Assembly: GCA_002841335.1 (NCBI GenBank)
Contig: PHEY01000002.1
Location: 1 to 64,000 of the forward strand
Origin: Actinobacteria bacterium HGW-Actinobacteria-2
GTDB taxonomy: Bacteria; Actinomycetota; Actinomycetes; Propionibacteriales; Propionibacteriaceae
Direction: 5' to 3'
DNA: 64,000 bases
Under the pieces are notes generated by a model. It made no database searches. It had not been told where the DNA came from and saw nothing but the letters and a program-made list of their open reading frames with translations. The first letter of the stretch is position 1. Every line of letters begins with the position of its first letter. The position numbers and the translations under genes are program-made. Of this stretch, positions 3,769 to 37,873 are shown in pieces.

Positions 3769-3816
3769 AGGTTCCTCCCGGAGTAGATGGCGAGCACGAA
3801 GTCGTGCTGAACCAAC

Positions 3817-5283: not shown

Positions 5284-5293
5284 TTCTGCTCGC

Positions 5294-5366: not shown

Positions 5367-5371
5367 CAGAA

Positions 5372-6922: not shown

Positions 6923-7128
6923 AACCAGCGTGCCTACTTTGCCGCCCGACGTCCCACTTCGGCCCGTGAGTTCGCCGCGCGTACGAATAGTCGTGGTCAA
7001 GTGAGCAGGCTCAGATGGACCGTCCGAGATGGGGGTGTCAAGATCGACCCTCCCACCTTGGGGATGGTTGCCGCGACCCTGGCCGCCTGCAGCCGCGATC
7101 CTTCTCCGTGACCAGACTCATCACCCAG

Positions 7129-8826: not shown

Positions 8827-8898
8827 GGTGCTCCTTTGAGAAGGGAGGCAGCGCACAGCAGGCCCAGCCCGAGCGACGCTGCCCACGGGGGTTACCCC

Positions 8899-8927
8899 AG
8901 TTTGCGAGCCGCTTCCAGCGCTGTCAA
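8899..8927 (-). promoter_or_regulatory. Candidate promoter of the beta-amylase gene
   Basis: On the minus strand a perfect TTGACA (8927-8922) is followed after 17 bp by CAAACT (8904-8899). The spacing is ideal and the -10 is weak. The spacer contains GCGCTGGAAGCGGC, which may hold a LacI-type half site. Confidence 0.35.
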
Positions 8928-8951
8928 TGAGCACCTCGGGTGCGCACGGGC

Positions 8952-10250: not shown

Positions 10251-10555
10251 CGATCGCGGAAGATCGAACGGAGCACCACGGCGAACGTCACTGCGCCTGC
10301 GGCCGCGGCCAACACCAGGGCGACCCGCTCGATCCGGACGCCCTTTTCGTTGACCAACTGGTCCTTCACCTTGTGATAGCCGGAATCCACGAAATCCCGG
10401 GCGTCGGCGACGGTGTTGCGGACGATCGCCTTGGGGTGCACCTGGTTGATCAGCCCGGCCAGGTTCTCAGCCAGCCGATCGCGGGCGGCGGCGATGTCGG
10501 CCTCGATCTCGGCACGACTACGCGGTGGCTCCGCGGACGGGGTCTGCGCTGCCAT
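10247..10555 (-). CDS. DUF3618 domain protein
   Basis: Small 102-residue protein with the DUF3618 signature: an acidic/Ala-rich helical start (SRAEIEADIAAARDRLAENL) and a C-terminal hydrophobic helix (VALVLAAAAGAVTFAVVL) ending in basic residues, so probably membrane-attached. Function unknown; family members are actinobacterial and often sit near a bcp-type peroxiredoxin, as here (divergent, 90 bp away). It overlaps the next gene by 4 bp. Confidence 0.85.
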   Translation of the reverse strand: MAAQTPSAEPPRSRAEIEADIAAARDRLAENLAGLINQVHPKAIVRNTVADARDFVDSGYHKVKDQLVNEKGVRIERVALVLAAAAGAVTFAVVLRSIFRDR

Positions 10556-10645
10556 GACGCCTCCTTAGCACGATGGTGCCCCCAGCCTATGCCCACGCTC
10601 AGTACAGGCCCACGCTGAGGGAGGCAAATGCCTTAAGGTGGCCGC

Positions 10646-11128
10646 ATGGCTCGACTGGAGAGTGGCGACACCGCCCCCGCGTTCACCCTTCCCGACACCA
10701 ATGCTGCGCCGGTCTCGTTGGCCGACTTCGCCGGCTCCAAAGTGGTGCTCTACTTCTTCCCGGCCGCGATGACTCCCGGCTGCACGATCGAGGCCAAAGA
10801 CTTCAGCGAGGCCGTCGACCAGTTCGCCGATGCGGGCTACCAGGTGGTCGGCGTCTCGCCGGACGCCCCGGCGAAGCTGGCGAAGTTCCGCGACAAGGAG
10901 CAGCTCACCTTCCCGTTGCTCGGCGACCCGGAACGTCAGGTGTTGGACGCCTACGGCGCGTACGGCTCGAAGATGCTGTACGGCAAAGAGGTCACCGGGG
11001 TGATCCGGTCCACCTTCCTGATCGACGTGGACCCCACCGGCGTGGGCACGATCACCGACCCGCAGTACAACGTGCGCGCCACCGGTCACGTCGCCAAGCT
11101 CACCAAGCAGTTGGGCATCCGGGTCTAG
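10646..11128 (+). CDS. bcp: Thiol peroxidase of the Bcp/PrxQ family (one-Cys form)
   Basis: Cytoplasmic peroxiredoxin of 160 residues reducing hydroperoxides. The peroxidatic Cys46 is in MTPGCTIEAKDF. The second Cys found five residues later in E. coli Bcp is Lys here, and no other Cys exists in the protein, so it must work as a one-Cys enzyme with an external thiol, possibly mycothiol or mycoredoxin (inference). The gene is divergent from the DUF3618 gene. Confidence 0.92.
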   Translation: MARLESGDTAPAFTLPDTNAAPVSLADFAGSKVVLYFFPAAMTPGCTIEAKDFSEAVDQFADAGYQVVGVSPDAPAKLAKFRDKEQLTFPLLGDPERQVLDAYGAYGSKMLYGKEVTGVIRSTFLIDVDPTGVGTITDPQYNVRATGHVAKLTKQLGIRV

Positions 11129-11146
11129 CTCCCCCGCGGGGTCGAC

Positions 11147-11848
11147 TCAGGGAACGATGCCCTTCAGGGCTGCCGCCAGGGCGTCCCGGTCACCGTCGAC
11201 GTCCAGGTCGGCCGCGCTGCGTCGTCCCCACAGCAGCAGCGCCAGCTGCTCGGCGGTGCCACTCACTCGCACGGTCGGCGCCGACGCCTCGGCCGCATCG
11301 ACCACCAACTCCTCGGCCTCGCCGGACGTGAGCACGACGCGTACCTCCGGCGGCGCGGTGCGGCCCAACCGCACCTGCCGCGGCTGCATCACCGTGACCA
11401 CCTCATCGGCACAGTCCCACCACTCGTCGGGTGAGAACTCGGTGACCAAGCCAGCCGGAGTGCGCAGGTCCCACAGATGCACCATCGTCTCCAGAGCCTG
11501 CCGGCGGTGCCAGAACGCTCGGGTGCCGACCCGCGGCTCCTCGGCCGGACGATCGTCGTCCAGCAACGTCCAACACGGCTCGTCCGGATCGAGCTCGCTC
11601 AAAGTGGTGAACAGCACCGACGCGGCGGTGCGATAGTGCGCCACCAGGTCGTCTCCGGGTTCGAGGCGGACCTTGGGTCCACCGGCCCGACGAGCGGCCC
11701 AGGTGTAGATGTCGGCCAAGTGCAGAGCCAGGTCCCGCGCCGTCCAATCCCCGCAGGTGGGGATCGGCAGATCGGGGTCGATCTCGCCGAGGGAATCGGC
11801 GAAACGCCGTTGGTAGTCGCCCAGTCGCTCCAAGTGAGTAGCTGCCAT
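11147..11848 (-). CDS. Maleylpyruvate isomerase-family mycothiol-dependent protein
   Basis: DinB/MDMPI-fold protein of 233 residues. The N-terminal helix bundle carries PIPTCGDWTARDLALHLAD, where His and Asp would help bind metal, with AFWHRRQALETMVHLWD further on. A C-terminal domain with VRVSGTAEQLALLLWGR is the MDMPI_C pattern. Members use mycothiol, supporting an actinobacterial host. The specific substrate is unknown. It is convergent with bcp. Confidence 0.85.
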   Translation of the reverse strand: MAATHLERLGDYQRRFADSLGEIDPDLPIPTCGDWTARDLALHLADIYTWAARRAGGPKVRLEPGDDLVAHYRTAASVLFTTLSELDPDEPCWTLLDDDRPAEEPRVGTRAFWHRRQALETMVHLWDLRTPAGLVTEFSPDEWWDCADEVVTVMQPRQVRLGRTAPPEVRVVLTSGEAEELVVDAAEASAPTVRVSGTAEQLALLLWGRRSAADLDVDGDRDALAAALKGIVP

Positions 11849-25001: not shown

Positions 25002-27077
25002 TCAGCCGAGCCGGGACAGCGCGAGCTTGGCCTTGGCCGCGACGTTGTCCGCGGTGAAGCCGTACTTGGCGAACAGCACGTTGCCCGAGGCCGACTCACC
25101 GAAGTGGTCGATACCGACGATCTCGCCGGCCTGTCCGACGTAGGCCCGCCAACCGGTGGGCACGCCCGCCTCGACGGCGACCTTGGCCACCCCGTCCGGC
25201 AGGACGGCGGCGCGGTAGTCGGACGGCTGGGCGTCGAACCACTCCAGGCAGGGAGCCGAGACCACGCGGGTGCCAATGCCTTCGGCCTGCAGCGCGTCGC
25301 GGGCGTCCAGGGCGACTGAGACTTCCGAGCCGGTGGCGATGATGACCACCTTGAGCTCACCGTCGGCGTCGACCAGCGTGTAGGCGCCCTTGGCGACCTC
25401 GCTGGCCGGAGCCACGCCGGCGGCGTCCCGATCGATGATCGGCAGGTCCTGGCGCGACAGGATCAGCGCGCTGGGACGATCGGTGTGGGCCAGCGCCAGC
25501 GCCCAGGCCTGAGCGGTCTCGTTGGCATCGGCCGGACGGATCACGTCGATGCCCGGCATGATCCGCAGGCTCTCCACGTGCTCGATCGGCTGGTGGGTGG
25601 GGCCGTCCTCGCCGACGCCGACCGAATCGTGCGTCCAGACGAAGATCGTGGGAATCTTCTGCAGGGCAGCCAGGCGCACCGCACCGCGCATGTAGTCGGC
25701 GAAGACCAGGAAGGTGCCGCCGTAGGCGCGGGTGAGGCCGGTGTTGATGGCGTTGAGGATGTTGCCCATGGCGTGCTCGCGAATGCCGAAGTGCAGCACG
25801 CGTCCGGAGAAGTCGCCGCTGAACTCGTGGCTGGAGCGCTCCGGGGGCAGGAAGGACTTCTGGCCCTTCATGGTGGTGTTGTTGGAGCCGGCCAGGTCGG
25901 CCGAGCCGCCCCACAGCTCGGGCATGGCCTCGGCGATGGCGCTGAGCACTTCACCGGAGGCGGCGCGGGTGGCCTTCTTGCCCGGAGCGAACACCGGCAG
26001 AGCCGCCGACAGGTCGGGGACGACGCCGGCGACCAGGCGGTCGAGCAGCTCGCCCTGGGCGGGGTTGGCGGCGCGCCAAGCGTCGTAGGCGCGCGTCCAT
26101 TCAGCCTTCGCCGCGACCGCACGGGTGGCGGCGTTGGTGCGGGCGTGGGCCAGCACTTCGGCTTCGTAGGGGAAGTTCACGGCCGGGTCGAAGCCGAGTT
26201 CCTTCTTCAGGGCGGCGATTTCGTCGGTGCCGAGCTTGGCGCCGTGGACGCTGTGGCTGCCGGCCATGGTGGGCAGTGGCCAGCCGATGACGGTGGTCAG
26301 CTTGATGAAGCTGGGCTTGTCGGTGACGGCCTTGGCCGCCTCGATCGCCTCGTACAGGGCTTGGAGGTTCTCGGTGTAGCCGGTGCTGCCGTTGGTCCAG
26401 TCGACGTGCTGCACGTGCCAGCCGTAGGCGGCGTAGCGGGCGGCGACGTCCTCGGTGAAGGCGATGGAGGTTTCGCCCTCGATGGAGATGCGGTTGTCGT
26501 CGTAGATGACCACGAGGTTGCCCAGCTTCTGGGTGCCGGCCAGCGAGGATGCTTCGGCGGCGGGGCCTTCCTGCATGCAGCCGTCGCCGGTGATGCAGTA
26601 GACGAAGTGGTCGAACGGCGAGGGCTGACCGACCGGGGTGTTCGGGTCGAGCAGGGCGCGCTCGCGGCGGGCCGCCATCGCGAAGCCGACCGCGTTGGCC
26701 ACGCCCGCGCCCAGCGGACCGGTGGTCACCTCGACGCCGGCGGTGTGGCCGTACTCGGGGTGTCCCGGGGTCAGTGAGCCTTCGGTGCGCAGCGCCTTCA
26801 GGTCGTCCAGCTCGAGGCCGAAACCGGCCAGATACAGCTGGGTGTACTGGGTGAGCGAGGAGTGCCCGATGGACAGCACGAAGCGGTCGCGTCCGAGCCA
26901 GCGGGGATCGGACGGATCGTGCCGCATCACCTTCTGGTAGAGCAGGTACGCCAGCGGGGCGAGCGAGATAGCGGTGCCCGGATGGCCGTTGCCGACCTTC
27001 TCCACAGCGTCAGCCGCCAGGATCCGTGCAGTGTCGACAGCGCGCGCGTCCAGCTCGCTCCAGGTTAGATCGGACAT
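25002..27077 (-). CDS. tkt: Transketolase
   Basis: Thiamine-diphosphate enzyme of the non-oxidative pentose phosphate pathway, 691 residues. N-terminal ANGHPGTA-like motif is GNGHPGTAISLAPLAYLLYQ. ThDP/Mg binding lies in ITGDGCMQEGPAAEASSLAG and DDNRISIEGET. The pyrimidine-domain Glu lies in LHFGIREHAMGNILN, and FVWTHDSVGVGEDGPTHQPI follows. The C-terminal domain is complete. The start ATG 27077 gives the usual length. Followed by the DMT transporter. Confidence 0.97.
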   Translation of the reverse strand: MSDLTWSELDARAVDTARILAADAVEKVGNGHPGTAISLAPLAYLLYQKVMRHDPSDPRWLGRDRFVLSIGHSSLTQYTQLYLAGFGLELDDLKALRTEGSLTPGHPEYGHTAGVEVTTGPLGAGVANAVGFAMAARRERALLDPNTPVGQPSPFDHFVYCITGDGCMQEGPAAEASSLAGTQKLGNLVVIYDDNRISIEGETSIAFTEDVAARYAAYGWHVQHVDWTNGSTGYTENLQALYEAIEAAKAVTDKPSFIKLTTVIGWPLPTMAGSHSVHGAKLGTDEIAALKKELGFDPAVNFPYEAEVLAHARTNAATRAVAAKAEWTRAYDAWRAANPAQGELLDRLVAGVVPDLSAALPVFAPGKKATRAASGEVLSAIAEAMPELWGGSADLAGSNNTTMKGQKSFLPPERSSHEFSGDFSGRVLHFGIREHAMGNILNAINTGLTRAYGGTFLVFADYMRGAVRLAALQKIPTIFVWTHDSVGVGEDGPTHQPIEHVESLRIMPGIDVIRPADANETAQAWALALAHTDRPSALILSRQDLPIIDRDAAGVAPASEVAKGAYTLVDADGELKVVIIATGSEVSVALDARDALQAEGIGTRVVSAPCLEWFDAQPSDYRAAVLPDGVAKVAVEAGVPTGWRAYVGQAGEIVGIDHFGESASGNVLFAKYGFTADNVAAKAKLALSRLG

Positions 27078-27353
27078 CTTTGACCTTCCTCAGGGATAAC
27101 TTCGTTGCGGCGCCGGGACCGCCCTAGTTTCCCACATCTGGGGAGACCGTCCGCCGTGGACCAGCACGTGCCCGCCGGCCCGTGCCCGACTCGAGGTGAA
27201 GACCTCGGAAAGCGAGGCCGCCGCGCACGGAGGTTCGCGGCGCGTAGCACCTGACTCCTGGAGCAGGACGAAAAGCGTCCACACTTGCCCAAAACCGGCC
27301 GCTCGGAGCCATGCACGGCGCACGGAAGGACAGTAGGCTGGCTTGACGGCTGT
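27078..27353. other. Divergent intergenic region between tkt and the nuclease-ATPase gene
   Basis: About 275 bp holding the promoters of both divergent genes. No gene or clear repeat is seen. Composition changes toward lower GC at the right-hand side, marking the left boundary of the accessory island. Confidence 0.4.
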
Positions 27354-29801
27354 ATGCATATCACTCATTGGAAGTGGCAACTCGTGGAACCCATCGATTC
27401 AGCTTTCGAAGCCTTCACGCGCTTGAGTAAGGAAGTCGGCGAGTACCTACACTCGGTCATCACTGAGTCCGATACTCGGATGAAGGTAATAGACCGAATG
27501 TTCGTGGAGGTCTTGGGCTGGCCCCGCCTAGAGTTGATGACCGAGACACACAGTGAGGCCGGGTACGCCGACTATAGCCTGATGGGAGATGGCCTTTGCC
27601 GGGCCGTTGTGGAGGCCAAGCGTGACGGGCGCTCGCTCGGATGCGAGAGCCGTGCCGGCGGCCGAGCCTACAAGCTCGACGGCCCAGTCTTCAGTGACGG
27701 CAACGCACAAGAGGGTATCACTCAAGCGATTTCCTACTGCGCGGAGCAAGGTGCGGAACTCGCATGCGTAACCAATGGACGTGAGTGGATAATATTCCGT
27801 GCAAACAGGCGTGGCGATGGGCATCCAGTAAGGCAAGGACACGCTTTCGTATTCCCGAATCTCGGAGAGATTGAGACCAGCTTTCGACGATTCTTTCAAC
27901 TCCTCTCTAGGGACTCAGTCTTATCCCGCGGATATATCCCTGAGTTCCAGGAGACTGAAGGCAACCCAATTCGCATGTCCGTCTTCAATAAGGCCGTCCG
28001 CCCACAAGGTTCAGCCCGCTCCATCCCTCAGTCTGCACTCGCCGCAGATATGGAGAAAGTCATGACAACCTTCTTCCGACGTCTGACAGGAGATGACGAC
28101 CCCCAACTAATTGAAGCCTGCTTCGTCGAGTCCGACGACAGTCGTACCGCAGAGCGGCAACTCACACGTATCGCCGAGTCGATGACCGCCCGAATTAAGG
28201 ACCTCGAAACGGGCGGCGGCGCCCAACTTGTCGAACTCATCCGACGCACAGCCGATACCCAACGACACGAGTTCGTCGTCATAGTTGGCCAGAAAGGCTC
28301 CGGGAAATCCACCTTCGTTACTCGGTTCTTTAACCTTGTCCTACCTGAACCACTCGCCAAACAGTGTTCGGTGCTCCAGGTGGACCTAGCGGACAACCCA
28401 GGCTCGCTCGAAACCTTGGTCGACTGGCTCGACCGCGCATTTCTCGCACAAGCGGAGATCGCGCTGTTTGAGGGGTCACCCAACTTCGACCAGCTCAAAG
28501 GTGCCTTCTTTGACGAGTACACTCGCCTCAAGAAGGGGCCCTGGAAGGTTCTTCACGATACAGACTTCAGCGAGTTCTCTCAGCGATTCGGAGATCACAT
28601 CGAACAGCTCCGATCCACCCAGCCCCACGTCTACCTAGAAGGCCTAATCCGGAGCGTTGTCGGCGGAAGGAAGCAAGTTCCCGTTCTCGTGTTCGACAAC
28701 ACCGACCACTTCGATATTGATTTCCAACAGCGCGTATATCAATATGCCCAGTCACTCTATGAACGGACCTTCTGCCTTGTAATTCTACCGATCACCGATA
28801 GAACCAGTTGGCAGCTAACCAAACACGGCGCAATTCAGTCCTTTGAACACGAGTCGTTTTTCCTGCCCACGCCAGGAACTCAGCAGATTTTACGCAAGAG
28901 AGTTGAGTTCCTCGAATCCAAAATAGACTCCGATGAGGGCGGGGGTCGCTACTTCACCGATCGCGGGGTCTCTCTTGCAGTTCGAGACTTGCGCGCGTTC
29001 ACTAACGCGCTGCAGAGGCTCTTTTTGCAGTCGGCCACGACAGCCGACTGGATTGGCGCACTCGCCAACTACGAGATACGTAGGGCACTAAATATCGCTA
29101 ATCATTTCATTGTTTCGCCCCACTTGCGTGTCGAGGACCTTGTCGGCGCATACCTCGCTGGCACCTCCGTAAACGTCGAGAACAACGTGATAGAACGCGC
29201 CTTGATTCGCGGTCGATACGACATCTACCCCCAAGCCATGCACGACTCGGTCCAGAATGTCTATGCACTGGAGGCGTCGATGGAAACGACGCCGCTTCTA
29301 GGTGTGCGACTCCTCCAGGCGTTAGCGGACGTGCCGACGATTGAGCGGGAGGGTGCGTTTATCGAGATCGAAAACCTGGAAGCAGTAGCCACCACCATGA
29401 GCATCGACGCTCGCGCCACACGGATGTGGATCGATCAGCTGCTCAAGACGGGTCTGATTTTGAACTTCGACCCAACCGTGCTCGACGTCGACAAGGCTAG
29501 TCGCGTCGAGATTTCGCCCGCTGGAGGCTTGCACTTGGCGTGGGCGAGGTCATCGTTCGAGTACCTGGTTGCCATGTCCGTCACAACCGCCCTGCTCGAC
29601 GAGGTTCGCCACTCCGAGATTCGCTTGGCCTCCGAGCGCCAGCGCTTCCGAACCATGGCGGCATCATTCGCTGAGTATCTGGCCGCCGAGGACTCGCTCT
29701 TCTGCATGGTGCCCGACCACACCACATACTCAAGCCAGTCCCGAATCCGGAGTGGGCTGCTCGAATCCGCCGCGAAGTGGCGGGTTCAAAGGAGGCGCTG
29801 A
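27354..29801 (+). CDS. Large nuclease-ATPase fusion (HsdR_N-like PD-(D/E)xK domain plus P-loop NTPase), candidate defence protein
   Basis: From ATG 27354 the protein has 815 residues. N-terminal module: Asp73 in YADYSLMG, then VVEAKRDG (Glu87, Lys89), ITQAISY as the QxxxY motif and ACVTNGREWIIF, the layout of type I restriction R-subunit nucleases. A linker leads to Walker A GQKGSGKST (about 312-320) and Walker B PVLVFDNTDH (about 443-452). Near residue 680-715, MSIDARATRMWIDQLLKTG looks like a winged helix, as in ORC/STAND-type ATPases. No helicase motifs or methylase partner exist, so it is not an ordinary restriction enzyme. Codons are visibly less GC-rich than in the flanking tkt. It sits beside a toxin-antitoxin pair, suggesting a mobile defence locus (inference). 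An in-frame ATG at 27285 is possible but has no better support. Confidence 0.8.
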   Translation: MHITHWKWQLVEPIDSAFEAFTRLSKEVGEYLHSVITESDTRMKVIDRMFVEVLGWPRLELMTETHSEAGYADYSLMGDGLCRAVVEAKRDGRSLGCESRAGGRAYKLDGPVFSDGNAQEGITQAISYCAEQGAELACVTNGREWIIFRANRRGDGHPVRQGHAFVFPNLGEIETSFRRFFQLLSRDSVLSRGYIPEFQETEGNPIRMSVFNKAVRPQGSARSIPQSALAADMEKVMTTFFRRLTGDDDPQLIEACFVESDDSRTAERQLTRIAESMTARIKDLETGGGAQLVELIRRTADTQRHEFVVIVGQKGSGKSTFVTRFFNLVLPEPLAKQCSVLQVDLADNPGSLETLVDWLDRAFLAQAEIALFEGSPNFDQLKGAFFDEYTRLKKGPWKVLHDTDFSEFSQRFGDHIEQLRSTQPHVYLEGLIRSVVGGRKQVPVLVFDNTDHFDIDFQQRVYQYAQSLYERTFCLVILPITDRTSWQLTKHGAIQSFEHESFFLPTPGTQQILRKRVEFLESKIDSDEGGGRYFTDRGVSLAVRDLRAFTNALQRLFLQSATTADWIGALANYEIRRALNIANHFIVSPHLRVEDLVGAYLAGTSVNVENNVIERALIRGRYDIYPQAMHDSVQNVYALEASMETTPLLGVRLLQALADVPTIEREGAFIEIENLEAVATTMSIDARATRMWIDQLLKTGLILNFDPTVLDVDKASRVEISPAGGLHLAWARSSFEYLVAMSVTTALLDEVRHSEIRLASERQRFRTMAASFAEYLAAEDSLFCMVPDHTTYSSQSRIRSGLLESAAKWRVQRRR

Positions 29802-29833
29802 ACCCCGCGCCTATGCCGACGTCTCGCGGGGGT
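29802..29833 (+). terminator. Candidate terminator after the nuclease-ATPase gene
   Basis: ACCCCGCG pairs with CGCGGGGGT across a 15-nt loop immediately after the stop codon. The stem is short, so only moderate support. Confidence 0.45.
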
Positions 29834-30088
29834 CTTCACAACCACACACCAGCCTCAAGCACACGCCACCTGCGCTAGAGGCCGCCTGGGCTCACCGGCC
29901 CATTGGACGCGCTTGGGCCCATCGAGGCCCCCGCTGGACATCGAGCCGCTGGCCGCCTCTGCGCGGACTCCAACTGGCGGACGGATCACCGAAGAGCAAA
30001 CCGCAGCGCAGTGACCTTGTCGCCGCGAAGGCGGCGGGAGGCGGCTTCCTGGCCAGCAGTTGGGGCCAACTCCTGCTTGGGGACGCCC

Positions 30089-30418
30089 TCAGAGGACATC
30101 GCCACCAACCTCCGCCTCCACTCGGCCCACGATGAGCGGAACATCCACAGCAATGGTCTGCCGGATGATCCCCGAATCGACCAGGAGATAGCCGTGGGCG
30201 ATGCGGTTGCGCATTCCCCACATGAGCGGCCAGTCCTCACCGAAGAGTCGGTCTCGGACGTCCGAGTCGAGGCCGGCGAGCACCTCAATGGCGGCCGATA
30301 GGCGCATGCAGATCGCGTCGACGACCAACTGATCATCAAGGCCGCGAGCGGCGTACCCCTGGAGCGCCTCGAGATGCTGCAGAGCGTCCGTCAGCACCTC
30401 GACCGCAGGCCGACTCAC
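30089..30418 (-). CDS. hepT: HepT-like HEPN toxin (DUF86)
   Basis: 109-residue helical HEPN protein of the MNT/HEPN toxin-antitoxin class. The RNase-type motif is in MRNRIAHGYLLVD (Arg70, His75, Tyr77), the usual RX4-6H plus Tyr of HepT. Such toxins cleave RNA and are silenced by MntA-mediated AMPylation of the Tyr. It overlaps the antitoxin gene by 4 bp, antitoxin first. Confidence 0.9.
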   Translation of the reverse strand: MSRPAVEVLTDALQHLEALQGYAARGLDDQLVVDAICMRLSAAIEVLAGLDSDVRDRLFGEDWPLMWGMRNRIAHGYLLVDSGIIRQTIAVDVPLIVGRVEAEVGGDVL

Positions 30419-30885
30419 AGGGCCACGGCCTCAGCCAGGACGCGCTCGCGCAGGTGTGACTTGAGGGCGGAGTCGGGAACCAGATCCACCTCGACACCCA
30501 CCAAGTGACTGATGTCTTGCTCGAGTCGTCCGAGCCGCATCAGGCTCAGCGGAACCGAGGGCGTGAAGATCAGGTCGATGTCCGAGCCTTCACGATCACG
30601 GCCGGTGGCGACCGAGCCGAACACCCGAACGTCGGCTCCCCCGACGTCGGCCACCAGCTTCTGAATGGCCGAGGCGTTCTTGCGGAGACGCCGACCCAAC
30701 GGCGACGTCCCGCAGAAGTGCAGCAGGCGAGAGACCTCCGGCTGGCTCCGACCGATCTCGGCAGCGATCTGCTTTTGAGTCATGCCGGACGCCGCGGCAG
30801 CGCGGACGGCCTGGATCAGTTCCTCGCGGGCACGACGGATGTCGGCGTCACACCGACGAGCAACCTCAGCCAAGCTCTTGGACAT
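30415..30885 (-). CDS. mntA: MntA-type nucleotidyltransferase antitoxin with N-terminal HTH
   Basis: 156 residues with two parts. Residues about 25-56 form a helix-turn-helix (MTQKQIAAEIGRSQPEVSRL). Residues 83-110 form the minimal nucleotidyltransferase core FGSVATGRDREGSDIDLIF, with GS at 90-91 and the metal-binding SDID at 101-104. It should AMPylate and neutralise HepT, while the HTH likely binds the palindrome at 30892-30911 to autoregulate. Many MntA proteins lack the HTH, so this is a fused regulator-antitoxin. ATG 30885 lies six bases after a TATATT -10 element, suggesting a leaderless mRNA. Confidence 0.88.
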   Translation of the reverse strand: MSKSLAEVARRCDADIRRAREELIQAVRAAAASGMTQKQIAAEIGRSQPEVSRLLHFCGTSPLGRRLRKNASAIQKLVADVGGADVRVFGSVATGRDREGSDIDLIFTPSVPLSLMRLGRLEQDISHLVGVEVDLVPDSALKSHLRERVLAEAVAL

Positions 30886-30891
30886 GTGAGC

Positions 30892-30911
30892 AATATAGCA
30901 CTTGCTATATT
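30892..30911. promoter_or_regulatory. Operator/promoter of the mntA-hepT module
   Basis: Perfect inverted repeat AATATAGCA-CT-TGCTATATT. On the minus strand its TATATT (30897-30892) is a -10 element ending six bases before the mntA ATG, so a bound repressor would block RNA polymerase. Confidence 0.75.
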
Positions 30912-30939
30912 CGCCAGAGGGTCGGCCTCCAGGGCTCAG

Positions 30940-31650
30940 TTAGCTGACAGCCACAGCCGCACGCGGCGCCGGACGCGACGCCAGAATCACCGTGACCACG
31001 GCGGCCAGGATCGCGAAGGCCACGGTCAACAGACCGGTGCCGGGCGGAGTGTCCCAGTTGGCGTCGCTCAGCGCGATCATCGCGAAGTACTCCACCACCT
31101 GGTGCGCGAAGCCGACGGCGGTCGCCGCCAGGAGGACGATCACCGCTCGGCCGAACACCACTCCGCGTACGCCAGCGCCGTACAACGCCATCAGCGCGAA
31201 CACAGCGCTCACCTCGACCAGCGCCCCCAGGACGCCGGCCACGGACAGTTCCGGTCCCACCTGATAGGGCGGCGCCGCCACTGCGGCAACCGCGGCGATC
31301 GCGAGCACCGACGGCAGTGCCGCGGCGACCTTGAAGCCCCACCTCACCGGCAGGGCGCCGACCACGACCAGCCACGACGCTGCCAACAGCAGCGCGGCGA
31401 TCGTCCCCAACGTGCCGATCAGCGTCCAGCCCTCGCCGAAGGTCAGCAAGGGGAACGAGGGCACCGCATTCATCGCCACCCCACATTCGGGACTGAACGG
31501 CACGTCATAGCGATAGCCGTTGAAGATGCTTCCCGAGAACATGCTGCCCAGGCACGGCTGCCAAGAGAGCAACACCGCCGCACCGTCAGCCACAGCCCCG
31601 GCGGCAATCAGCGCCGCCGCAATCACCCAAGACTTACGATTCCCCGCCAT
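30940..31650 (-). CDS. Hypothetical integral membrane protein
   Basis: About 236 residues from ATG 31650, with six or so hydrophobic segments beginning SWVIAAALIAAGAVADGAAV. The first extracytoplasmic loop holds Cys in SWQPCLG and SPECGVAM. A TATGCT element ends six bases before this ATG (leaderless geometry); an in-frame GTG at 31686 is the alternative. No family recognised. It is divergent from the HEAT-repeat gene. Confidence 0.65.
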   Translation of the reverse strand: MAGNRKSWVIAAALIAAGAVADGAAVLLSWQPCLGSMFSGSIFNGYRYDVPFSPECGVAMNAVPSFPLLTFGEGWTLIGTLGTIAALLLAASWLVVVGALPVRWGFKVAAALPSVLAIAAVAAVAAPPYQVGPELSVAGVLGALVEVSAVFALMALYGAGVRGVVFGRAVIVLLAATAVGFAHQVVEYFAMIALSDANWDTPPGTGLLTVAFAILAAVVTVILASRPAPRAAVAVS

Positions 31651-31726
31651 GGAATGAGCATAGAGGGGCGCTTGTTTGACCTTCACGTCGCGTCAAGGTT
31701 TTCACTAGGGGACGGAGGTGGTTGAG

Positions 31727-32407
31727 ATGACCAACAATCAGATCGAAGAAGTGGTGGACCGACTGAAGGCCGAGCTGGAGGCCGAGTCGGCAACCGCACG
31801 ACTGCAGACCGTGATGGCCGCAGGGATGCGTCCGCACGACCGCTACATCGATGTCCTCGTCGAGCGGTTCGGCGTCGAGCCGGACTTCCATGTGCGCGAC
31901 ACGCTCACCTGGGCGCTGATCAGTCACGATCGGACGCTCACGCTCAAGCGCGTCCTGCCGGAGCTCGACTCGGAGAATCCGCAGGCCCGCGCTCAGGCAC
32001 TGCACACCTTGTCAAAGCTGGGTGAGCAGGAGGCGTGGCCGGCGATCACCACCGAGCACCTCACCGACCCCGACGACCGAGTGGCCCAAACCGCCTGGCG
32101 GGCGGCGGCCGCCCTGGTGCCGGACGGCGAGGCTGCGGCGCTCGCCGAGGTGCTCTCGACGCAGTTCGGACGCGGCGACCGTGCCGTCCAGCGCGGCCTC
32201 AGCCGTGCCTTGGCAGCGCTCGGTGACGCGGCCACCCCGGTGATCGAGCGGGCCAAGCAGCATCGCGACGCGGCCGTGCGCGCCCACGCGCTCGCCACCG
32301 AGCAGCTGGTCAAGAACCCCGACGCCGGGTTCGACGTCGCCTTGGCGACCGCCCGGCGGACGGTCGCGCTGCTCGGCGCACCGCTGGTCGATCACGTCGA
32401 GGACTAG
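31727..32407 (+). CDS. HEAT-repeat protein
   Basis: 226-residue all-helical protein. GGAGG lies eight bases before ATG 31727, which is preferred over a GTG at 31718 that overlaps the ribosome site. Repeated helical units with Asp/Arg pairs are visible at DFHVRDTLTWALIS, NPQARAQALHTLSK, DRVAQTAWRAAAALV, DRAVQRGLSRALAALG and DAAVRAHALATEQL, a HEAT/PBS-lyase-like solenoid. Likely a protein-interaction scaffold; partner unknown. Confidence 0.8.
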   Translation: MTNNQIEEVVDRLKAELEAESATARLQTVMAAGMRPHDRYIDVLVERFGVEPDFHVRDTLTWALISHDRTLTLKRVLPELDSENPQARAQALHTLSKLGEQEAWPAITTEHLTDPDDRVAQTAWRAAAALVPDGEAAALAEVLSTQFGRGDRAVQRGLSRALAALGDAATPVIERAKQHRDAAVRAHALATEQLVKNPDAGFDVALATARRTVALLGAPLVDHVED

Positions 32408-32420
32408 CAGTCCCCAGCCA

Positions 32421-32460
32421 CCTACCGTCGCAAGCGTCTAGCTGAGCTTGCGACGGTAGG
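32421..32460. terminator. Bidirectional terminator overlapping the end of the ABC permease gene
   Basis: 15-bp perfect stem CCTACCGTCGCAAGC and complement with a 10-nt loop. It lies between the HEAT-repeat gene and the convergent ABC permease, and its right arm encodes the permease C terminus. Confidence 0.85.
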
Positions 32461-33199
32461 TGAGCATCGCCAGGACGTAGGCCAACACGAGGATGCCCAC
32501 GCACCAGGCCAGGGCGATCGGTAGATCCGCACCCACCGGCTGGCCGGCGAACAGCGCCCGGATCGCATTGACGATCGAAGTCACCGGCTGGTTCTCGGCG
32601 AAGATCCGCACCGGGGTCGGCATGGTCGCGGTCGGCACGAAGGCCGAGCTGATGAACGGCAGGAAGATCAACGGATAGGCGAACGCACTGGCCCCGTCCG
32701 CACTCTTCGCAGTCAGCCCGGGGATCACCGCCAGCCACGTCAACGCCAGGGTGAGGATCACCACGATGCCCAACACGGCCAGCCAGGCGAGCAGGCCCGC
32801 ACTCGTCCGGAACCCCATCAGGACGGCGACCAGCACCACCACGATCACCGAGATCAGGTTGGCCACCAGGGACGTCACCACATGCGCCCACAGCACGGAC
32901 GACCGCGCAATCGGCATGGAATGGAAGCGCTCGAAGATGCCGCCTTGCAGGTCGAGGAACAACCGGAACGCGGTGTAGGCGATGCCGGAGGCGATGGTGA
33001 TCACCATGATTCCGGGCAGCAGATAGGCCACATACGAATCGGTGCCGGTGTTGATCGCGCCGCCCAGCACGTACACGAACAGCAGCATCATCGCGATCGG
33101 CGTGAGCGTGGTGGTGATGATCGTGTCCAGGCTGCGGCTGATGTGGCGCAACGAGCGTCCGAGCAGGACGGCGGTGTCGCCGAAGAAGTGATTGGTCAT
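32438..33199 (-). CDS. ABC-2 type permease of a drug-efflux system
   Basis: 253-residue permease with about six helices of the DrrB type: VLGGAINTGTDSYVAYLLPG, then GGIFERFHSMPIARSSVLW, the ABC-2 signature region, and a late FAENQPVTSIVNAIRALF. The ATG at 33199 overlaps the ATPase stop by 4 bp; a longer in-frame extension inside the ATPase gene is rejected. Partner of the adjacent DrrA-like ATPase; exports a hydrophobic compound (substrate unknown). Confidence 0.92.
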   Translation of the reverse strand: MTNHFFGDTAVLLGRSLRHISRSLDTIITTTLTPIAMMLLFVYVLGGAINTGTDSYVAYLLPGIMVITIASGIAYTAFRLFLDLQGGIFERFHSMPIARSSVLWAHVVTSLVANLISVIVVVLVAVLMGFRTSAGLLAWLAVLGIVVILTLALTWLAVIPGLTAKSADGASAFAYPLIFLPFISSAFVPTATMPTPVRIFAENQPVTSIVNAIRALFAGQPVGADLPIALAWCVGILVLAYVLAMLTYRRKLS

Positions 33200-33978
33200 G
33201 CTGATTCCTCCCCGGCCTCCGGCTCGCCGACGATGGCGAGGAAGACCTCTTCGAGGGTGGGCTGCTTCTCCACGTACTCGACCTTCGCCGGCGGGAGCAG
33301 TGCCTTGAGCTCGGCCAGCGTGCCGTTCTCGATGATGCGTCCGCCGTGCAGGATCGCGATCCGATCGGCCAACTGCTCGGCCTCGTCCAAATACTGCGTT
33401 GTCAGCAGAATGGTGGTGCCACTGGCGGCCAGCTCGCGGATCGCCTGCCACACCTCCAGCCGAGCCTGGGGGTCGAGCCCGGTGGTCGGCTCGTCGAGGA
33501 AGACCACCGGCGGCTCGCCGAGCAGGCTCATCGCGATGTCGAGGCGGCGGCGCATCCCACCGGAGTAAGTGGCCACCCGGCGTCCGGACGCATCGGTGAG
33601 CGAGAATCGCTCCAGCAGCGCGTCGGCGAGTTGGCCGGGGTTCTTCAGGTGTCGCAGCCGGGCGATCAGGACGAGGTTCTCCCGTCCGGTGAGGATCTCA
33701 TCGACAGCCGCGAACTGTCCGGTCAGGCTGATCGACTGCCGAACGTCGGACGCCTGCGCACCCACCGCGAAGCCGTTCACCCTGGCTTCACCGGCATCGG
33801 CCGACAGCAGGGTGGACAGGACCTTGATCACCGTGGTCTTGCCGGCGCCGTTCGAGCCGAGCAGGGCGAAGATGCTGCCCCGCGCGACCTCGAAGTCGAC
33901 GCCGCGCAGGACCTCAACGTCCTTGAAAGACTTCACCAGGCCGCGGACCCGCACCGGCGGCTCCGTCAACAGCGTCAT
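33196..33978 (-). CDS. ABC transporter ATP-binding protein (DrrA-like)
   Basis: 260-residue ATPase powering the ABC-2 permease. Walker A is GSNGAGKTT, the signature TYSGGMRRRLD, Walker B PPVVFLDEPTTGLDPQ and the H-loop LLTTQYLDEAEQL has Gln-Tyr where His often stands, as in DrrA relatives. The C-terminal PTLEEVFLAIVG is the DrrA-type tail. ATG 33978 overlaps the DUF1048 stop by 4 bp. Confidence 0.93.
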   Translation of the reverse strand: MTLLTEPPVRVRGLVKSFKDVEVLRGVDFEVARGSIFALLGSNGAGKTTVIKVLSTLLSADAGEARVNGFAVGAQASDVRQSISLTGQFAAVDEILTGRENLVLIARLRHLKNPGQLADALLERFSLTDASGRRVATYSGGMRRRLDIAMSLLGEPPVVFLDEPTTGLDPQARLEVWQAIRELAASGTTILLTTQYLDEAEQLADRIAILHGGRIIENGTLAELKALLPPAKVEYVEKQPTLEEVFLAIVGEPEAGEESA

Positions 33979-34352
33979 TTCGATTCGCCACCCTCGGCCT
34001 GCTCGGCCCGCGCGATGGTATCGATCAGGCGCGTGCGTTCCTTGTTGATCCATTGGCCTTCGGAGTAGTTGGCCAAGAAGATTTCCACGAAGCCCACCGG
34101 GTCGTCACCCACGATCGCGCGGATCGCAGTGCGGTCGGCGGCGGCCTGCTCGAACAGTTCGATCAGGTCGTCGAACATCCTCACGATGACCTCGCCGGAG
34201 TCGATGCCGCCGAAGTAGGTGAGGTAGCGCTCGATGCCGTTCAGCGCCGTGCGGTAGGCCTCCGGGAGCGCTGCCACCCGAGCCTTGTACTCGTGGTAGC
34301 GCTTCTTCTCATCCAACGATCCGATGAGCTTTTCAACCCAACGTGCAGCCAT
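33975..34352 (-). CDS. DUF1048 domain protein
   Basis: 125-residue soluble helical protein. WVEKLIGSLDEKKRYHEYKA and LPEAYRTALNGIERYLTYFG are the DUF1048 signature; these proteins accompany PadR regulators and efflux pumps. Function unknown. Second gene of the operon, starting 2 bp after the PadR stop and overlapping the ATPase start by 4 bp. Confidence 0.88.
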   Translation of the reverse strand: MAARWVEKLIGSLDEKKRYHEYKARVAALPEAYRTALNGIERYLTYFGGIDSGEVIVRMFDDLIELFEQAAADRTAIRAIVGDDPVGFVEIFLANYSEGQWINKERTRLIDTIARAEQAEGGESK

Positions 34353-34354
34353 GG

Positions 34355-34681
34355 TTACTTACCTCCTTGGAGCTGTTGCAAGCGATCTGCGAGGAAGCTC
34401 CAGGTCCTCCAGAACTCGTCCAACTCGTCTCGTCCACGCTCGTTGAGCGTGTAGACCTTTCGCGGCGGCCCGGACGGGGACGGCACCTTGGTGACGTCCA
34501 CCAGACCCCGCTGTTCGATGCGCACCAGCAGCGCGTAGATCGTGCCCTCGGCGATCTCGGTGAAGCCCTTTTCCCGTAGCCGAGCGGTGATCTCGTAGCC
34601 GTAGGCGGGCTGGCTGGCCAACAGGGCCAACACGATGCCCTCCAGCGTGCCCTTCAGCATCTCGGTGATCTGCTTTCCCAC
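34355..34681 (-). CDS. PadR-family transcriptional regulator
   Basis: 108-residue winged-helix repressor. GTG start at 34681. The PadR domain shows EGIVLALLASQPAYGYEITAR, TEIAEGTIYALLVRIEQRGL and the wing GPPRKVYTLNERGRDELDEF. It heads the efflux operon and likely represses it until ligand binds. The upstream 60 bp is A/T-richer with several ACTACC/TAGTAAC-like half sites (34695-34735), a probable operator. Confidence 0.92.
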   Translation of the reverse strand: MGKQITEMLKGTLEGIVLALLASQPAYGYEITARLREKGFTEIAEGTIYALLVRIEQRGLVDVTKVPSPSGPPRKVYTLNERGRDELDEFWRTWSFLADRLQQLQGGK

Positions 34682-34763
34682 GTCCAGTCCTCGCTACTCA
34701 GTGACACTGACTACCAGTACATAGTAACGCTAGCTACCGTTTTGGCAAGTGCCTCCACCGAAG

Positions 34764-34800
34764 GGTCTCGACACACGGCTTCGCCGCTGCCCAACCAGCG
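34764..34800. repeat. Diverged copy of the dispersed TCGA-rich repeat
   Basis: GGTCTCGACACACGGCTTCG followed by CCGCTGCCCAACCAGCG, the reverse-orientation form of the units at 16347-16593, located between the PadR operon and the CPBP gene. Confidence 0.65.
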
Positions 34801-34842
34801 GGAGCAGGGAGGCGAGCTCAATCAGCTGGCGTAGGAAAAGGC

Positions 34843-35652
34843 CTAGGCGGCCGACGGACGTCCGCGAAACCTTCGCTCAAGCACGAACACCGCAACCCAC
34901 GACATGGCCGCAGTCACCAAAGTGAACGGCGCGGTCGGGAAGATCAGCATCAAGGCGAAGTTCGCAGTGTTGTTCAGCGCATGCATCAGCGCCACCAGCG
35001 CGATCGAGTTGCTCTGCTCGTACACCAGGCCGGTCAGCCACGCCATCGCCACGATGCTCGCGGTGAACCCCGCAATGGTGAAGATCATCACGAACCCGAG
35101 CTGCCAATACAGCATCACCATCAGCGGGTAATGCCACACCGCCCAGATCAGGCCGACCTTCCACGTCGCACCCCACAGCGTCGACTCTCCTGCCCGCAGA
35201 GTCGGTTGCAGATAGCCGCGCCAGCCGAACTCCTCGGTGCCGCTGGTGACCAGGTTCGACACCAGGTAGACCGCGGTCGCCGCCACCGCGCCACCGACCG
35301 TGACCCCCGCCGCCGGGACGCCGGTCGCCACGCTCAACACGAACGCCGGGATGACCAGCACCATCGGCACCCCCACCGCCAAGCCAACACTGCCCACGGT
35401 CGGACGTCCCCACACCGGACGGTACTGGCGCACAGCCAGGTAGCCCAGCAGCGGACCGAACACGCCCAGGTCGAACAGCAGTTGCGCCACGAAGCCGGGC
35501 GAGCCCGCGCTACCGGCTAGGTCGAAGATCGTTCCGGTGGAACTGACCGGTGTCTGCTGCACCGCTCCCAGCCACCAACCACCAATCCACAGAGCCCACG
35601 TCCAGCCGAAACTGATCGCCAAGTAGCTGATCGTGCGAGTGCGTCTGGTCAC
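34843..35652 (-). CDS. CPBP-family intramembrane metalloprotease-like protein
   Basis: 269 residues with about seven helices. The CPBP (Abi/CAAX) motifs are TSGTEEFGWRGYLQP (Glu-Glu-x3-Arg) and a following IWAVWHYPLM, with a third His at ALMHALNNTANFAL. GTG start at 35652. Family roles include prenyl-protein processing, bacteriocin self-immunity and stress signalling; nothing here selects among them. Confidence 0.88.
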   Translation of the reverse strand: MTRRTRTISYLAISFGWTWALWIGGWWLGAVQQTPVSSTGTIFDLAGSAGSPGFVAQLLFDLGVFGPLLGYLAVRQYRPVWGRPTVGSVGLAVGVPMVLVIPAFVLSVATGVPAAGVTVGGAVAATAVYLVSNLVTSGTEEFGWRGYLQPTLRAGESTLWGATWKVGLIWAVWHYPLMVMLYWQLGFVMIFTIAGFTASIVAMAWLTGLVYEQSNSIALVALMHALNNTANFALMLIFPTAPFTLVTAAMSWVAVFVLERRFRGRPSAA

Positions 35653-35865
35653 GATGGGATGCTAGCGAGGACGACCGGCGGCGGCAGCGAGTTCGGCCCA
35701 TCACCCCGCGAAGCCGTCGCTTCGACGAGACCTTCCCCAGGTCTTCGACCCTTCGACAACCTCAAGACACACCAAGATCAACTAGCTGTGCGGGAATAGA
35801 CCGCCCAACCCAACGGTTGAACTCAAGCTGTGCTTCTGCGCGCCGACACCGAACCCAAGGAACTG

Positions 35866-37347
35866 ATGAGCACTCCTGACCTGGCCACCGAGCCCACCCA
35901 GGGCACGACGCCGATCCCGCCGCCGGCATCCGCCGAGAAGCTCCCCCGCCGGACCTTCACGGTCCTGGCGGTGCTGCTCGTCGGCGCCTTCGTGGTGATC
36001 CTCAACGAGACCGCGATGAACGTGGCCCTGTCGCGCATCATGACCGACCTGTCCGTCACCGAACGCACCGCCCAGTGGCTCACCACCGGCTTCATGCTCA
36101 CCATGGCCGTGGTCATTCCGATCAGCGGCTGGTTGCTGCAGCGTCTCACCACCCGCCAGGCATTCGGCCTTGCCATGTCGCTGTTTGCCGCGGGCACCGC
36201 GATCGCGGCGGTCGCCCCCGGATTCGGCTTCCTGCTCGGCGGGCGAATCATTCAAGCCTCCGGCACCGCGATCATGATGCCGCTGCTGATGACCACCGTG
36301 ATGGAACTCGTCCCGCCCCATATGCGCGGCCGAGTCATGGGCACGATCAGCCTGGTGATCGCCACCGCGCCGGCCATCGGACCGACGGTCTCGGGCGTCA
36401 TCCTGCAGTTCCTCAGCTGGCGCTTCGTTTTCGTCATGGTGCTGCCGATCGCGCTGGCCATCCTGTTCGTCGGCCTGCGGTTCGTGCCGAATGTGACCGA
36501 GACCCGCAAGACGCACCTGGACGGGTGGAGCATTCCGCTGGCCGGCCTGGGCTTCGGCGGCCTGGTGTACGGGCTGAGCCTGGTGGGCAACCCGCTGATT
36601 CCCACCTGGGAACTGGTCACCGCCTTGGTGATCGGCGCGGTCAGCTTGGCCGCGTTCGTCCTGCGCCAGCTCGTGCTGCAGCGCACCGACGACGCCCTGC
36701 TCGACCTGCGGACCTTCACTTACCCGACCTTCACGATCGCCCTGTCGGTGATGGCGATCGTGATGATCGTCCTCTTCGGCTCGATCATCGCCACCCCACT
36801 GGTGCTGCAGAAGGTGATGGGGCTTGAACCCCTGGCCGTCGGCCTGATGCTGCTGCCCGGCGGCTTGCTGATGGGCCTGCTCGGCCCGGTCATCGGACGC
36901 CTCTACGACAAGGTCGGCGCGCGCGTCCTGGTGATTCCGGGAGCGATCGTGGTCACCGCGGCATTCGCGATCTACGCCACCATCTCGCCGGCCACCCCGT
37001 GGTGGCACATCCTGGTGGCCAACTTGGTGATGAGCCTCGGCCTAGCCGTGATGATGACCCCGCTGTTCACCACCACCTTGGCCGCACTGCCCCACCACCT
37101 CTACAGCTACGGCTCGGCCATGCTGGGCACGGTGCAGCAGGTCGCGGGGGCGGCCGGGACGGCGCTGTTCATCACGATCATGGCGACGGTCTCCGGTGCC
37201 ACTGACACCCAGGCGGTCAGCACCGAGGCGTTGGCCACCGGGGCTCGCACCGCGTTCATCGTGGTCGGCTGCGTGTGGCTGCTCACCATCGTGGCCGCGT
37301 TCTTCCTACCCAAACACGACCCGGATTCGGTGCCGGAACACCACTGA
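35866..37347 (+). CDS. MFS drug:H+ antiporter, DHA2 (EmrB/QacA) family
   Basis: 493-residue transporter with 14 likely helices. ATG 35866 has AAGGAA close upstream; an in-frame GTG 12 codons earlier is less likely. Helix 1 includes the DHA2 pattern VVILNETAMNVALSRIMTDL, motif C is around VIATAPAIGPTVSGVILQF, and RIIQASGTAIMMPLLMTTVM fits EmrB. Likely multidrug efflux. Single-gene unit. Confidence 0.9.
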   Translation: MSTPDLATEPTQGTTPIPPPASAEKLPRRTFTVLAVLLVGAFVVILNETAMNVALSRIMTDLSVTERTAQWLTTGFMLTMAVVIPISGWLLQRLTTRQAFGLAMSLFAAGTAIAAVAPGFGFLLGGRIIQASGTAIMMPLLMTTVMELVPPHMRGRVMGTISLVIATAPAIGPTVSGVILQFLSWRFVFVMVLPIALAILFVGLRFVPNVTETRKTHLDGWSIPLAGLGFGGLVYGLSLVGNPLIPTWELVTALVIGAVSLAAFVLRQLVLQRTDDALLDLRTFTYPTFTIALSVMAIVMIVLFGSIIATPLVLQKVMGLEPLAVGLMLLPGGLLMGLLGPVIGRLYDKVGARVLVIPGAIVVTAAFAIYATISPATPWWHILVANLVMSLGLAVMMTPLFTTTLAALPHHLYSYGSAMLGTVQQVAGAAGTALFITIMATVSGATDTQAVSTEALATGARTAFIVVGCVWLLTIVAAFFLPKHDPDSVPEHH

Positions 37348-37432
37348 TCCTGCCGGGGCCGCAAGGCTTTTGACGGGCGGCGTTGGCTGAGCCTGGACAA
37401 CCTCTGCCACGACCGCTCGCTACGGTTGATCT

Positions 37433-37873
37433 GTGTTCGACGTGCGCATTGCGCCTGGTCCGGGCGTGCCGGACGGGCTGGTGATCTCTGCAGCTGAGCT
37501 GACAGAGCGCTATTCGCACGCCTCGGGGCCGGGCGGGCAGGGCGTCAATACCGCCGACTCGCGCGTGCAGTTGTCGCTCGATCTGGCCACCACGACCGCA
37601 CTGAGCGACGTCCAGCGGGCGCGGGCGTTGCGCAACCTCGCCACCCGGTTGGACGGCACCGTGCTCACCATCGACGCCGCGCAACACCGCTCGCAACGCC
37701 GCAACCGCACCGAGGCCCGCGAACGCCTCGCCGGCCTGCTGCGGGACGCGCTGGCCCCACCGCCACCGCCGCGTCGCGCCACTCGTCCCAGCCGAGCCGC
37801 GGTGGAGCGACGCCTGGTCAGCAAGCACCGCCGCGGCCAGCTGAAGAGATCGCGCCAGTCGACCTCCGACTAG
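37433..37873 (+). CDS. arfB: Alternative ribosome-rescue factor ArfB
   Basis: 146-residue peptidyl-tRNA hydrolase acting on stalled ribosomes. GTG start at 37433. The catalytic GGQ is in SHASGPGGQGVNTADSRVQL (residues 34-36), and the C-terminal basic tail (RRLVSKHRRGQLKRSRQST) would insert in the mRNA channel. The length and tail separate it from full release factors. It overlaps the pullulanase stop by 4 bp tail-to-tail (CTAG). Confidence 0.93.
   Translation: MFDVRIAPGPGVPDGLVISAAELTERYSHASGPGGQGVNTADSRVQLSLDLATTTALSDVQRARALRNLATRLDGTVLTIDAAQHRSQRRNRTEARERLAGLLRDALAPPPPPRRATRPSRAAVERRLVSKHRRGQLKRSRQSTSD

Follow-up and report, generated by a model that had tools for sequence, protein, structure and literature searches.

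We analysed positions 1 to 64,000 of contig PHEY01000002.1 (assembly GCA_002841335.1; hereafter, the window) from Actinobacteria bacterium HGW-Actinobacteria-2, a member of the Propionibacteriaceae, and followed up one gene on its forward strand. The original prediction, made from the sequence letters and their open reading frames (ORFs), had described this gene as a fusion of a nuclease and an ATPase in a single protein of 815 residues and as a candidate anti-phage system. The fusion holds, as the frame is open, the nuclease part has a fold match and the ATPase part passes the Pfam cut-offs for AAA_16 and AAA_22. In our reading the nuclease-AAA+ gene probably encodes a stand-alone protein, acquired horizontally, that defends the cell from phages or other mobile elements; we infer its defence activity, trigger and target, and hence the term anti-phage, from sequence and genomic context. 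The features of the gene, all on the plus strand, are as follows.

27354-29801, +, nuclease-AAA+ gene, intact open frame, 815 codons as first read.
27370-27386, +, ribosome-binding-like sequence GGAAG (27370-27374) and probable GTG start (27384), proposed from the sequence and the homologue N-termini.
27390-27953, +, predicted HsdR_N-type PD-(D/E)xK nuclease domain, ~residues 13-200 (model, fold match and invariant residues).
27465-27467, 27570-27572 and 27612-27614, +, nuclease domain residues Glu38, Asp73 and Glu87.
27618-27620, 27723-27725 and 27735-27737, +, nuclease domain residues Lys89, Gln124 and Tyr128.
28032-29123, +, Orc1/Cdc6-like AAA+ ATPase with lid, ~residues 227-590 (Pfam AAA_16/AAA_22 and fold match).
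28287-28310, +, Walker A motif GQKGSGKS, residues 312-319.
28689-28706, +, Walker B motif VFDNTD, residues 446-451.
29079-29081, +, Arg576, sensor-2-like arginine in the lid.
29292-29588, +, probable winged-helix region, ~residues 647-745 (alignments to 1fnn, 2qby and CED-4 that reach residues 732-748, and secondary structure).
29589-29798, +, C-terminal helices (alignments), followed in several relatives by cold-shock (OB) domains that are absent here.

The true product is more likely to be a protein of 805 residues starting at GTG 27384 than one starting at ATG 27354, because the N-termini of homologues align to residues 11-13 of the window protein, the first residues are poorly modelled in the full protein (predicted local distance difference test, pLDDT, of 27 for residues 1-10 and below 50 for residues 1-12), and GGAAG sits nine bases 5' of this GTG.

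The model supports the assignment of the N-terminal domain as an HsdR-type PD-(D/E)xK nuclease with intact active-site residues. A model of residues 13-226 built with eight homologues (pLDDT 80.2; predicted template modelling score, pTM, 0.80) had HsdR subunits and type IIG nucleases as its best structural matches, i.e., HsdR (3h1t; Z 10.0, root-mean-square deviation (rmsd) 5.0, 121 aligned), DrdV (7lvv; Z 9.6, rmsd 3.2, 130 aligned), BpuSI (3s1s; Z 9.3, rmsd 3.9, 140 aligned) and EcoR124I HsdR (4beb; Z 8.2, rmsd 4.3, 141 aligned). Foldseek alone gave weaker matches, the best of which was also to HsdR (E 7.6e-3). Pfam HSDR_N matched the window protein weakly (residues 66-153, E 7.2e-4, 19.9 bits vs a cut-off of 25.1), and at E ≤ 0.01 HSDR_N_2 was found in nine and HSDR_N in six of 16 family members, two counts that may overlap.

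Conservation was assessed in a set of 32 homologues that includes the window protein (31 distinct, 17 representatives at ≤60% identity) and has a median pairwise identity of 19.9%. Seventeen of the 815 positions are invariant in all 32: E38, L54, D73, E87, K89, Y128, G312, G315, G317, K318, D448, N449, D451, P507, R516, R576 and G724. Asp73, Glu87, Lys89 and the tyrosine of a QxxxY motif, the four nuclease residues predicted beforehand, are all among them (chance 1.3e-7, given 17 of 815 positions invariant), Gln124 of the same motif is kept in 30 of 32, and the loss of nuclease residues across the family that would have spoken against the prediction was not seen. The set leaves out partial copies (L019, L029), copies with broken frames (L032, L035), duplicates or close relatives, not all of which were compared (L031, L033, L021, L022, L024, L025), L076, which shares a contig with L026, and L038-L041 and L045. 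L043 was kept as its own frame is open, though the wider match has two stops, and L006, an annotated coding sequence without the N-terminus, was used in profile A1 only.

The ratio of nonsynonymous to synonymous substitution rates (dN/dS) was calculated for five pairs, of which L018 vs L023 was free of saturation throughout; in the other four, most parts showed saturation. In the L018 and L023 pair purifying selection is strong (dN/dS 0.051 overall, 0.056 in the nuclease, 0.063 in the AAA and 0.051 in the C-terminal part). This selection and the invariant catalytic residues argue against the view that the gene is ordinary cargo without current function, a decaying selfish or housekeeping gene. 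Some copies are indeed broken (the frames of L032 and L035, and an Escherichia coli copy, H37, interrupted by IS1), but we regard this explanation as very improbable.

The P-loop ATPase of the original prediction was confirmed by Pfam, with AAA_16 and AAA_22 both above their cut-offs in the window protein. Among the 16 members (E ≤ 0.01), AAA_22 was detected in 14, AAA_16 in 11, CSD in three, KAP in two and S1 in one, and the NCBIfam orc1/cdc6 model matches three of them. The full-protein model aligned with Cdc6 (1fnn) over residues 232-748 (Z 14.6, rmsd 8.9, 326 aligned; ~10% identity) and with TnsC (7mcs; Z 14.2, rmsd 4.5, 298 aligned), followed by CED-4 (Z 12.8), BrxC (9zll; Z 12.7) and RdrA (8hr8; Z 12.4), and many Orc subunits and Apaf-1 are also among its fold matches. 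Given that the 50 fold matches listed fall within 2.3 Z, we label the module Orc/Cdc6-STAND-like AAA+ and do not assign it to one family. The Walker B catalytic glutamate (D-E) of the Orc1/Cdc6 type is not present, as Asn449, which we take to occupy the usual position of this glutamate, is found in 32 of 32 homologues; Arg576 is presumably the sensor 2 residue, assigned by resemblance. The winged helix that had been put forward as possible is probable, within an AAA+ module spanning ~227-748: its support comes from the Cdc6/Orc1 alignments, which extend to residue ~748, though with rmsd values of ~7-9. As predicted, helicase motifs are lacking in the window protein, in which no helicase model is above its Pfam cut-off (Viral_helicase1 reached 20.2 bits vs 21, on the P-loop), and a DEAD match was found in one of the 16 members (E 0.0013).

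Four relatives (L003, L004, L005 and L007) reach 957-981 amino acids with C-terminal cold-shock-type OB domains, which the window protein and L002 do not have; the tail of L017 looks like that of the one member with an S1 match. The C-terminal tail therefore seems exchangeable, being of cold-shock type in close relatives, absent in the window protein and of S1 type in one member. The possibility of a lost cold-shock tail just 3' of the window gene was rejected, as the overlapping ORF at 29569-30135, the sole ORF tested, had no Pfam match at E ≤ 0.001.

The nuclease domain is of the same kind as the N-terminal PD-(D/E)xK domain of HsdR in type I restriction and of the type IIG enzymes DrdV and BpuSI. 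In contrast to HsdR, the window protein has an Orc1/Cdc6-like AAA+ in place of the superfamily 2 (SF2) helicase and, without an SF2 motor, is not HsdR. No hsdM, hsdS or methylase gene was found among the window neighbours scanned by Pfam, in agreement with the earlier statement that a methylase and a specificity subunit are missing. The main rival to our reading is type IV-like modification-dependent restriction, in which modified invader DNA would be recognised and cut, with the AAA+ as a translocating or gating motor. An HsdR-type nuclease fused to an NTPase would suit such an enzyme, as would the lack of a neighbouring methylase, and one homologue is annotated as "Predicted type IV restriction endonuclease". 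However, no modified-base reader domain was detected in the Pfam results of the window protein or among the 23 families of the 16 members (E ≤ 0.01), and the Cdc6-like ATPase has Asn where the Walker B Glu would be expected, so we find this rival doubtful, if deserving of serious consideration.

In Orc1/Cdc6 and TnsC the AAA+ core is followed by a lid and a winged helix, the arrangement proposed for the window protein, which differs in its fused N-terminal nuclease, its Asn for the Walker B Glu and an identity of only ~10%. TnsA of Tn7 is a PD-(D/E)xK nuclease, and by analogy with TnsA and TnsC the protein could function in transposition or DNA repair. TnsC is among the best fold matches (7mcs), but no transposase is encoded by the window neighbours scanned by Pfam, the repeat scan of 26.9-31.0 kb revealed short, chance-like repeats only, and the transposase and integrase genes near plasmid relatives vary from locus to locus, making such a role hardly credible. 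The nuclease fold matches listed do not include TnsA, an absence that does not count against kinship.

Avs-type sensors join an effector nuclease and a STAND/ORC-type NTPase in one chain, with a long repeat sensor. The one-chain nuclease and NTPase are common to Avs and the window protein, which is 815 amino acids long and whose fold is also matched by CED-4 and Apaf-1; no PADLOC Avs model matched the window protein (E ≤ 1) or the 16 members (E ≤ 0.01), a result compatible with distant kinship. RdrA (RADAR) and BrxC (BREX) are defence ATPases with AAA+ folds related to that of the window protein, and to our knowledge both are parts of multi-gene systems and have no fused nuclease of this kind. 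PglW of type-2 BREX, as described in the available part of PMC12839542, likewise carries a NERD-type PD-(D/E)xK nuclease at its N-terminus and, in the same chain, a STAND/ORC-Cdc6-like AAA+, but has 1400-1600 residues, kinase modules and an inactive AAA+ and belongs to a multi-gene system, whereas the window protein has 815 residues, an intact Walker A and no partner genes seen. The McrBC-type CoCoNuT systems, according to the available part of PMC11090510, also pair an NTPase with a PD-DxK nuclease, and cold-shock OB domains are fused in some members, as in the family studied here; their nuclease and McrB GTPase are separate proteins, whereas the window protein is one chain with a Cdc6-like AAA+. 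No McrB-type GTPase or McrC appeared in the Pfam results for the window protein and the 16 members or among the window neighbours scanned, and by sequence the window protein is not McrBC.

No model covering the whole protein exists in Pfam, NCBIfam or PADLOC 2023. The best PADLOC match of the window protein was at 0.003, on the P-loop, and the best over the 16 members were CSD_V (4.1e-8), DrmMI (6.8e-6) and mad8 (7.2e-6), each in three to four members. The literature searched, including the available parts of PMC9122126, PMC9519451, PMC7159879, PMC11090510 and PMC12839542, names no protein of this architecture, and supplementary Table S5B of PMC9122126 (P2-hotspot systems) may contain it. Within these libraries and this literature, the domain order thus matches no named system, as first reported.

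The gene is rare in the sampled genomes, and sparse rather than core, so the uniform core-genome distribution that would have spoken against the prediction was not seen. Its own genome has one copy, and a homologue was found in one of 145 other relatives (24% identity), none of 395 other genomes of the phylum sample, one of 341 other genomes of the order sample (by profile) and, leaving aside the fragmented copy of G540, three of 397 other genomes of its phylum, the last three counts being lower bounds with at most two candidates scored per genome. Homologues were detected in 29 of 72,556 plasmid records, 16 of which were examined, and phage records gave no match. Copies covering ≥80% of two subfamily queries were present in eight and seven of 5426 E. 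coli genomes, all chromosomal, the H37 copy with IS1 being one of them; genomes H22 and H23, with the same length and position, are probably one strain. The genome-contig collection had no match in a single-protein search and at least one partial locus (L019) in a profile search, viral contigs had none with A4 and at least one with profile A1, and the Protein Data Bank (PDB) held no convincing match by sequence.

In the family tree, the window copy clusters with copies from proteobacterial plasmids and with the virus contigs L026, L075 and L077 (support 100/100), whereas L010 and L046, from the genus and family of the window, fall in another clade with a Paracoccus plasmid copy (100/100). The different clades suggest separate acquisitions, with the caution that long branches (window, L077, L078, L011, L016 and L017) make the deep joins of the tree unsure.

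The composition of the window gene also sets it apart, in line with the lower GC and different codon use originally described. The gene has a GC content of 56.7% and a GC content at third codon positions (GC3) of 0.664, vs 69.7% and 0.912 for the adjoining transketolase gene; in 1-kb steps, 27.0-29.5 kb is 55-60% GC vs 62-72% elsewhere in 20-40 kb (mixed edge steps aside), the dip being limited to ~27-30 kb in a GC-rich host. Scans for terminators and promoters around the gene found none above chance.

Elsewhere, phages, plasmids and islands repeatedly carry homologues in their cargo slots. Six of 15 E. coli copies were inspected, and every one adjoins DUF977 within a lambdoid prophage, with at least four sites represented: on the ttcA side (L021, L022), at potC (L023), rspB (L024) and yccA (L025), and in a prophage with Rac-type genes whose site was not seen (L020). 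DUF977 was matched in 4002 of 5426 E. coli genomes, and five of 40 listed matches, picked by eye, had exchanged cargo in the slot. Two of these contigs (L079 and L080, both at 5114-7093, +) share one pair of hypothetical genes in the slot, and another carries a small methyltransferase along with broken genes and the remnant of an IS. The slot of L082 (5900-8225, +) holds an adenosine deaminase, a non-canonical purine NTP pyrophosphatase and SIR2 (ThsA match 6.6e-32), possibly a defence cassette.

In four distinct elements (L015=L031, L027, L028 and L029), the homologue is located 340-400 bp downstream of a P2-type portal gene; beyond, L028 also has a gpA-like gene and L027 a weaker match (35% over 139 residues). 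The gpQ-gpA region of P2-type phages is described in the available part of PMC9122126 as an anti-phage hotspot that also holds other genes. Known defence genes were detected near further homologues, i.e., Tmn ~0.5 kb upstream (L011; 7.6e-78), AbiEi/AbiEii ~3 kb away with an adjacent integrase (L086, in which three further proteins had no match), an OLD-family ATPase (L087), and a separate type I HsdR with a methylase gene ~3-7 kb away (L003). Near the homologue on a Sinorhizobium plasmid (L012, 1448-4283, +) we also observed a caspase-family gene and a hypothetical gene, and the caspase-family protein had no PADLOC match.

Location on plasmids and prophages, in some cases close to rep genes (L004, L012, L017), together with the Orc/Cdc6-like fold, would also be expected of an element-maintenance factor that serves the plasmid or prophage in incompatibility, replication control or sibling exclusion, with defence as a by-product. 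Yet the window copy sits in an insertion site between transketolase and pullulanase, where the neighbours scanned include no replicon gene, and the DUF977 gene is present in 4002 E. coli genomes vs eight and seven for the two subfamilies; we judge such a role unlikely. The window interval comprises the following features.

27078-37869, no strand, variable segment between the transketolase and pullulanase genes (gap comparison and flanks).
25002-27077, −, transketolase gene, left border (match in 22/26 genus genomes, E ≤ 1e-100).
37870-40524, −, pullulanase-type gene, right border (Pfam; match in 18/27 genus genomes).
30089-30418, −, HepT-like toxin gene, neighbouring cargo (Pfam 2.1e-12).
30415-30885, −, MntA-like antitoxin gene (NTP_transf_2) with N-terminal helix-turn-helix, neighbouring cargo (Pfam 1.6e-11).

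Across the genus, the interval between transketolase and pullulanase is a hotspot of insertion, and its cargo is mixed. Both genes were matched in 15 genus genomes and lie on one contig in 12 of them (own included), where the gaps between alignment ends are ~95, 119, 119, 148, 504, 1755, 2520, 2678, 2708, 10400, 10795 (own) and 28215 bp. This spread from ~95 bp to ~28.2 kb, with the site nearly empty in five of the 12, indicates variable insertion, and the nuclease-AAA+ gene was in none of eight transketolase neighbourhoods compared.

The toxin-antitoxin pair said to follow the gene is present, but is not part of the system. It is a type VII-like HepT-MntA pair (30089-30885, −) whose antitoxin has an extra N-terminal helix-turn-helix, both genes being above the Pfam cut-offs and below the NCBIfam equivalog cut-offs. 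We treat it as separate cargo, as L067 has the pair and L068 has MntA alone, in both cases without the nuclease-AAA+ gene. In L067 (genome G019) a 417-amino-acid gene of 52% GC fills the same slot between transketolase and HepT-MntA (10495-11748, −), and its product had no Pfam or PADLOC match at E ≤ 0.001. In G007 (L069), a genome of the same genus whose pullulanase is on another contig than the transketolase, a calcineurin-type phosphoesterase, GASH, two DO-GTPases and GAP1-N1 lie beside the transketolase (3564-9859, +), a set that fits the GAP1-N1 GTPase systems (double-GTPase conflict system) in the available part of PMC7159879. The cargo of G008 (L068) includes PycTM (Pycsar-type effector; PADLOC 1.5e-9, Pfam below cut-off) and a PADLOC "Hydrolase" (1.4e-48), and the window segment also carries a HEAT-repeat gene.

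Several observations weigh against a role in defence. Genomic association is not proof, and cargo slots also carry non-defence genes: a nitroreductase in G008, ABC-transporter, MFS and CAAX-protease genes in the window segment, and a BCCT transporter in one of the five sampled DUF977 slots. Given this mixed cargo, we rejected the notion of the transketolase-pullulanase site as a pure defence island. P2 portal and gpA-like genes were not seen near the close relatives L009, L030 and L032, the plasmid collection is mobile by construction, PADLOC lacks a model for the protein, and broken copies exist. The neighbours scanned with PADLOC were ten proteins chosen by eye, from which no unbiased enrichment can be read, the data for L071, L073 and L090-L093 consist of ORF listings, and the full-protein model is of moderate quality (pLDDT 73.6, pTM 0.58).

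On the other side stand the intact nuclease, the putative ATP switch, the strong constraint, the rarity, and the repeated residence in phage, plasmid and island cargo slots, and we consider the genomic evidence for defence to be good. The candidate anti-phage system of the original prediction is thus favoured by its context, i.e., the P2-type portal slot, lambdoid prophages, plasmids, and AbiE, Tmn, OLD and type I restriction-modification neighbours.

The folds suggest how such a defence protein might work. The AAA+/winged-helix part, along with the OB-fold cold-shock domains in some relatives, would bind a nucleic-acid structure typical of invaders, e.g., a replication intermediate, and ATP binding would then build or lock an oligomer in the manner of Orc, TnsC or RdrA. 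The Asn that invariably replaces the catalytic Glu points to slow hydrolysis, and so to a switch rather than a motor. Assembly would bring the N-terminal nucleases together and lead to DNA cutting, of the invader's DNA or the cell's. As no methylase or specificity subunit is adjacent, discrimination would come from the trigger and not from a methylation pattern. More tentatively, the homologues may constitute a separate family, as yet without a name, of mobile "initiator-nuclease" immune proteins, in which an Orc1/Cdc6-type AAA+ ring recognises invader origins or intermediates and fires the fused HsdR-type nuclease by ATP-locked assembly, and OB-fold (cold-shock/S1) tails widen sensing in some members to single-stranded DNA or RNA; we hold this to be possible.

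If the defence reading is true, the gene would represent a compact single-gene defence family that occurs on chromosomal islands as well as on plasmids and on prophages of lambdoid and P2-like type, spans at least two named phyla plus the host of the window, and combines the cutting domain of type I restriction with an ATPase of the replication-initiator type. An origin-recognition-type ATPase could then act as an immune switch, for which the E. coli prophage copies allow a direct test.

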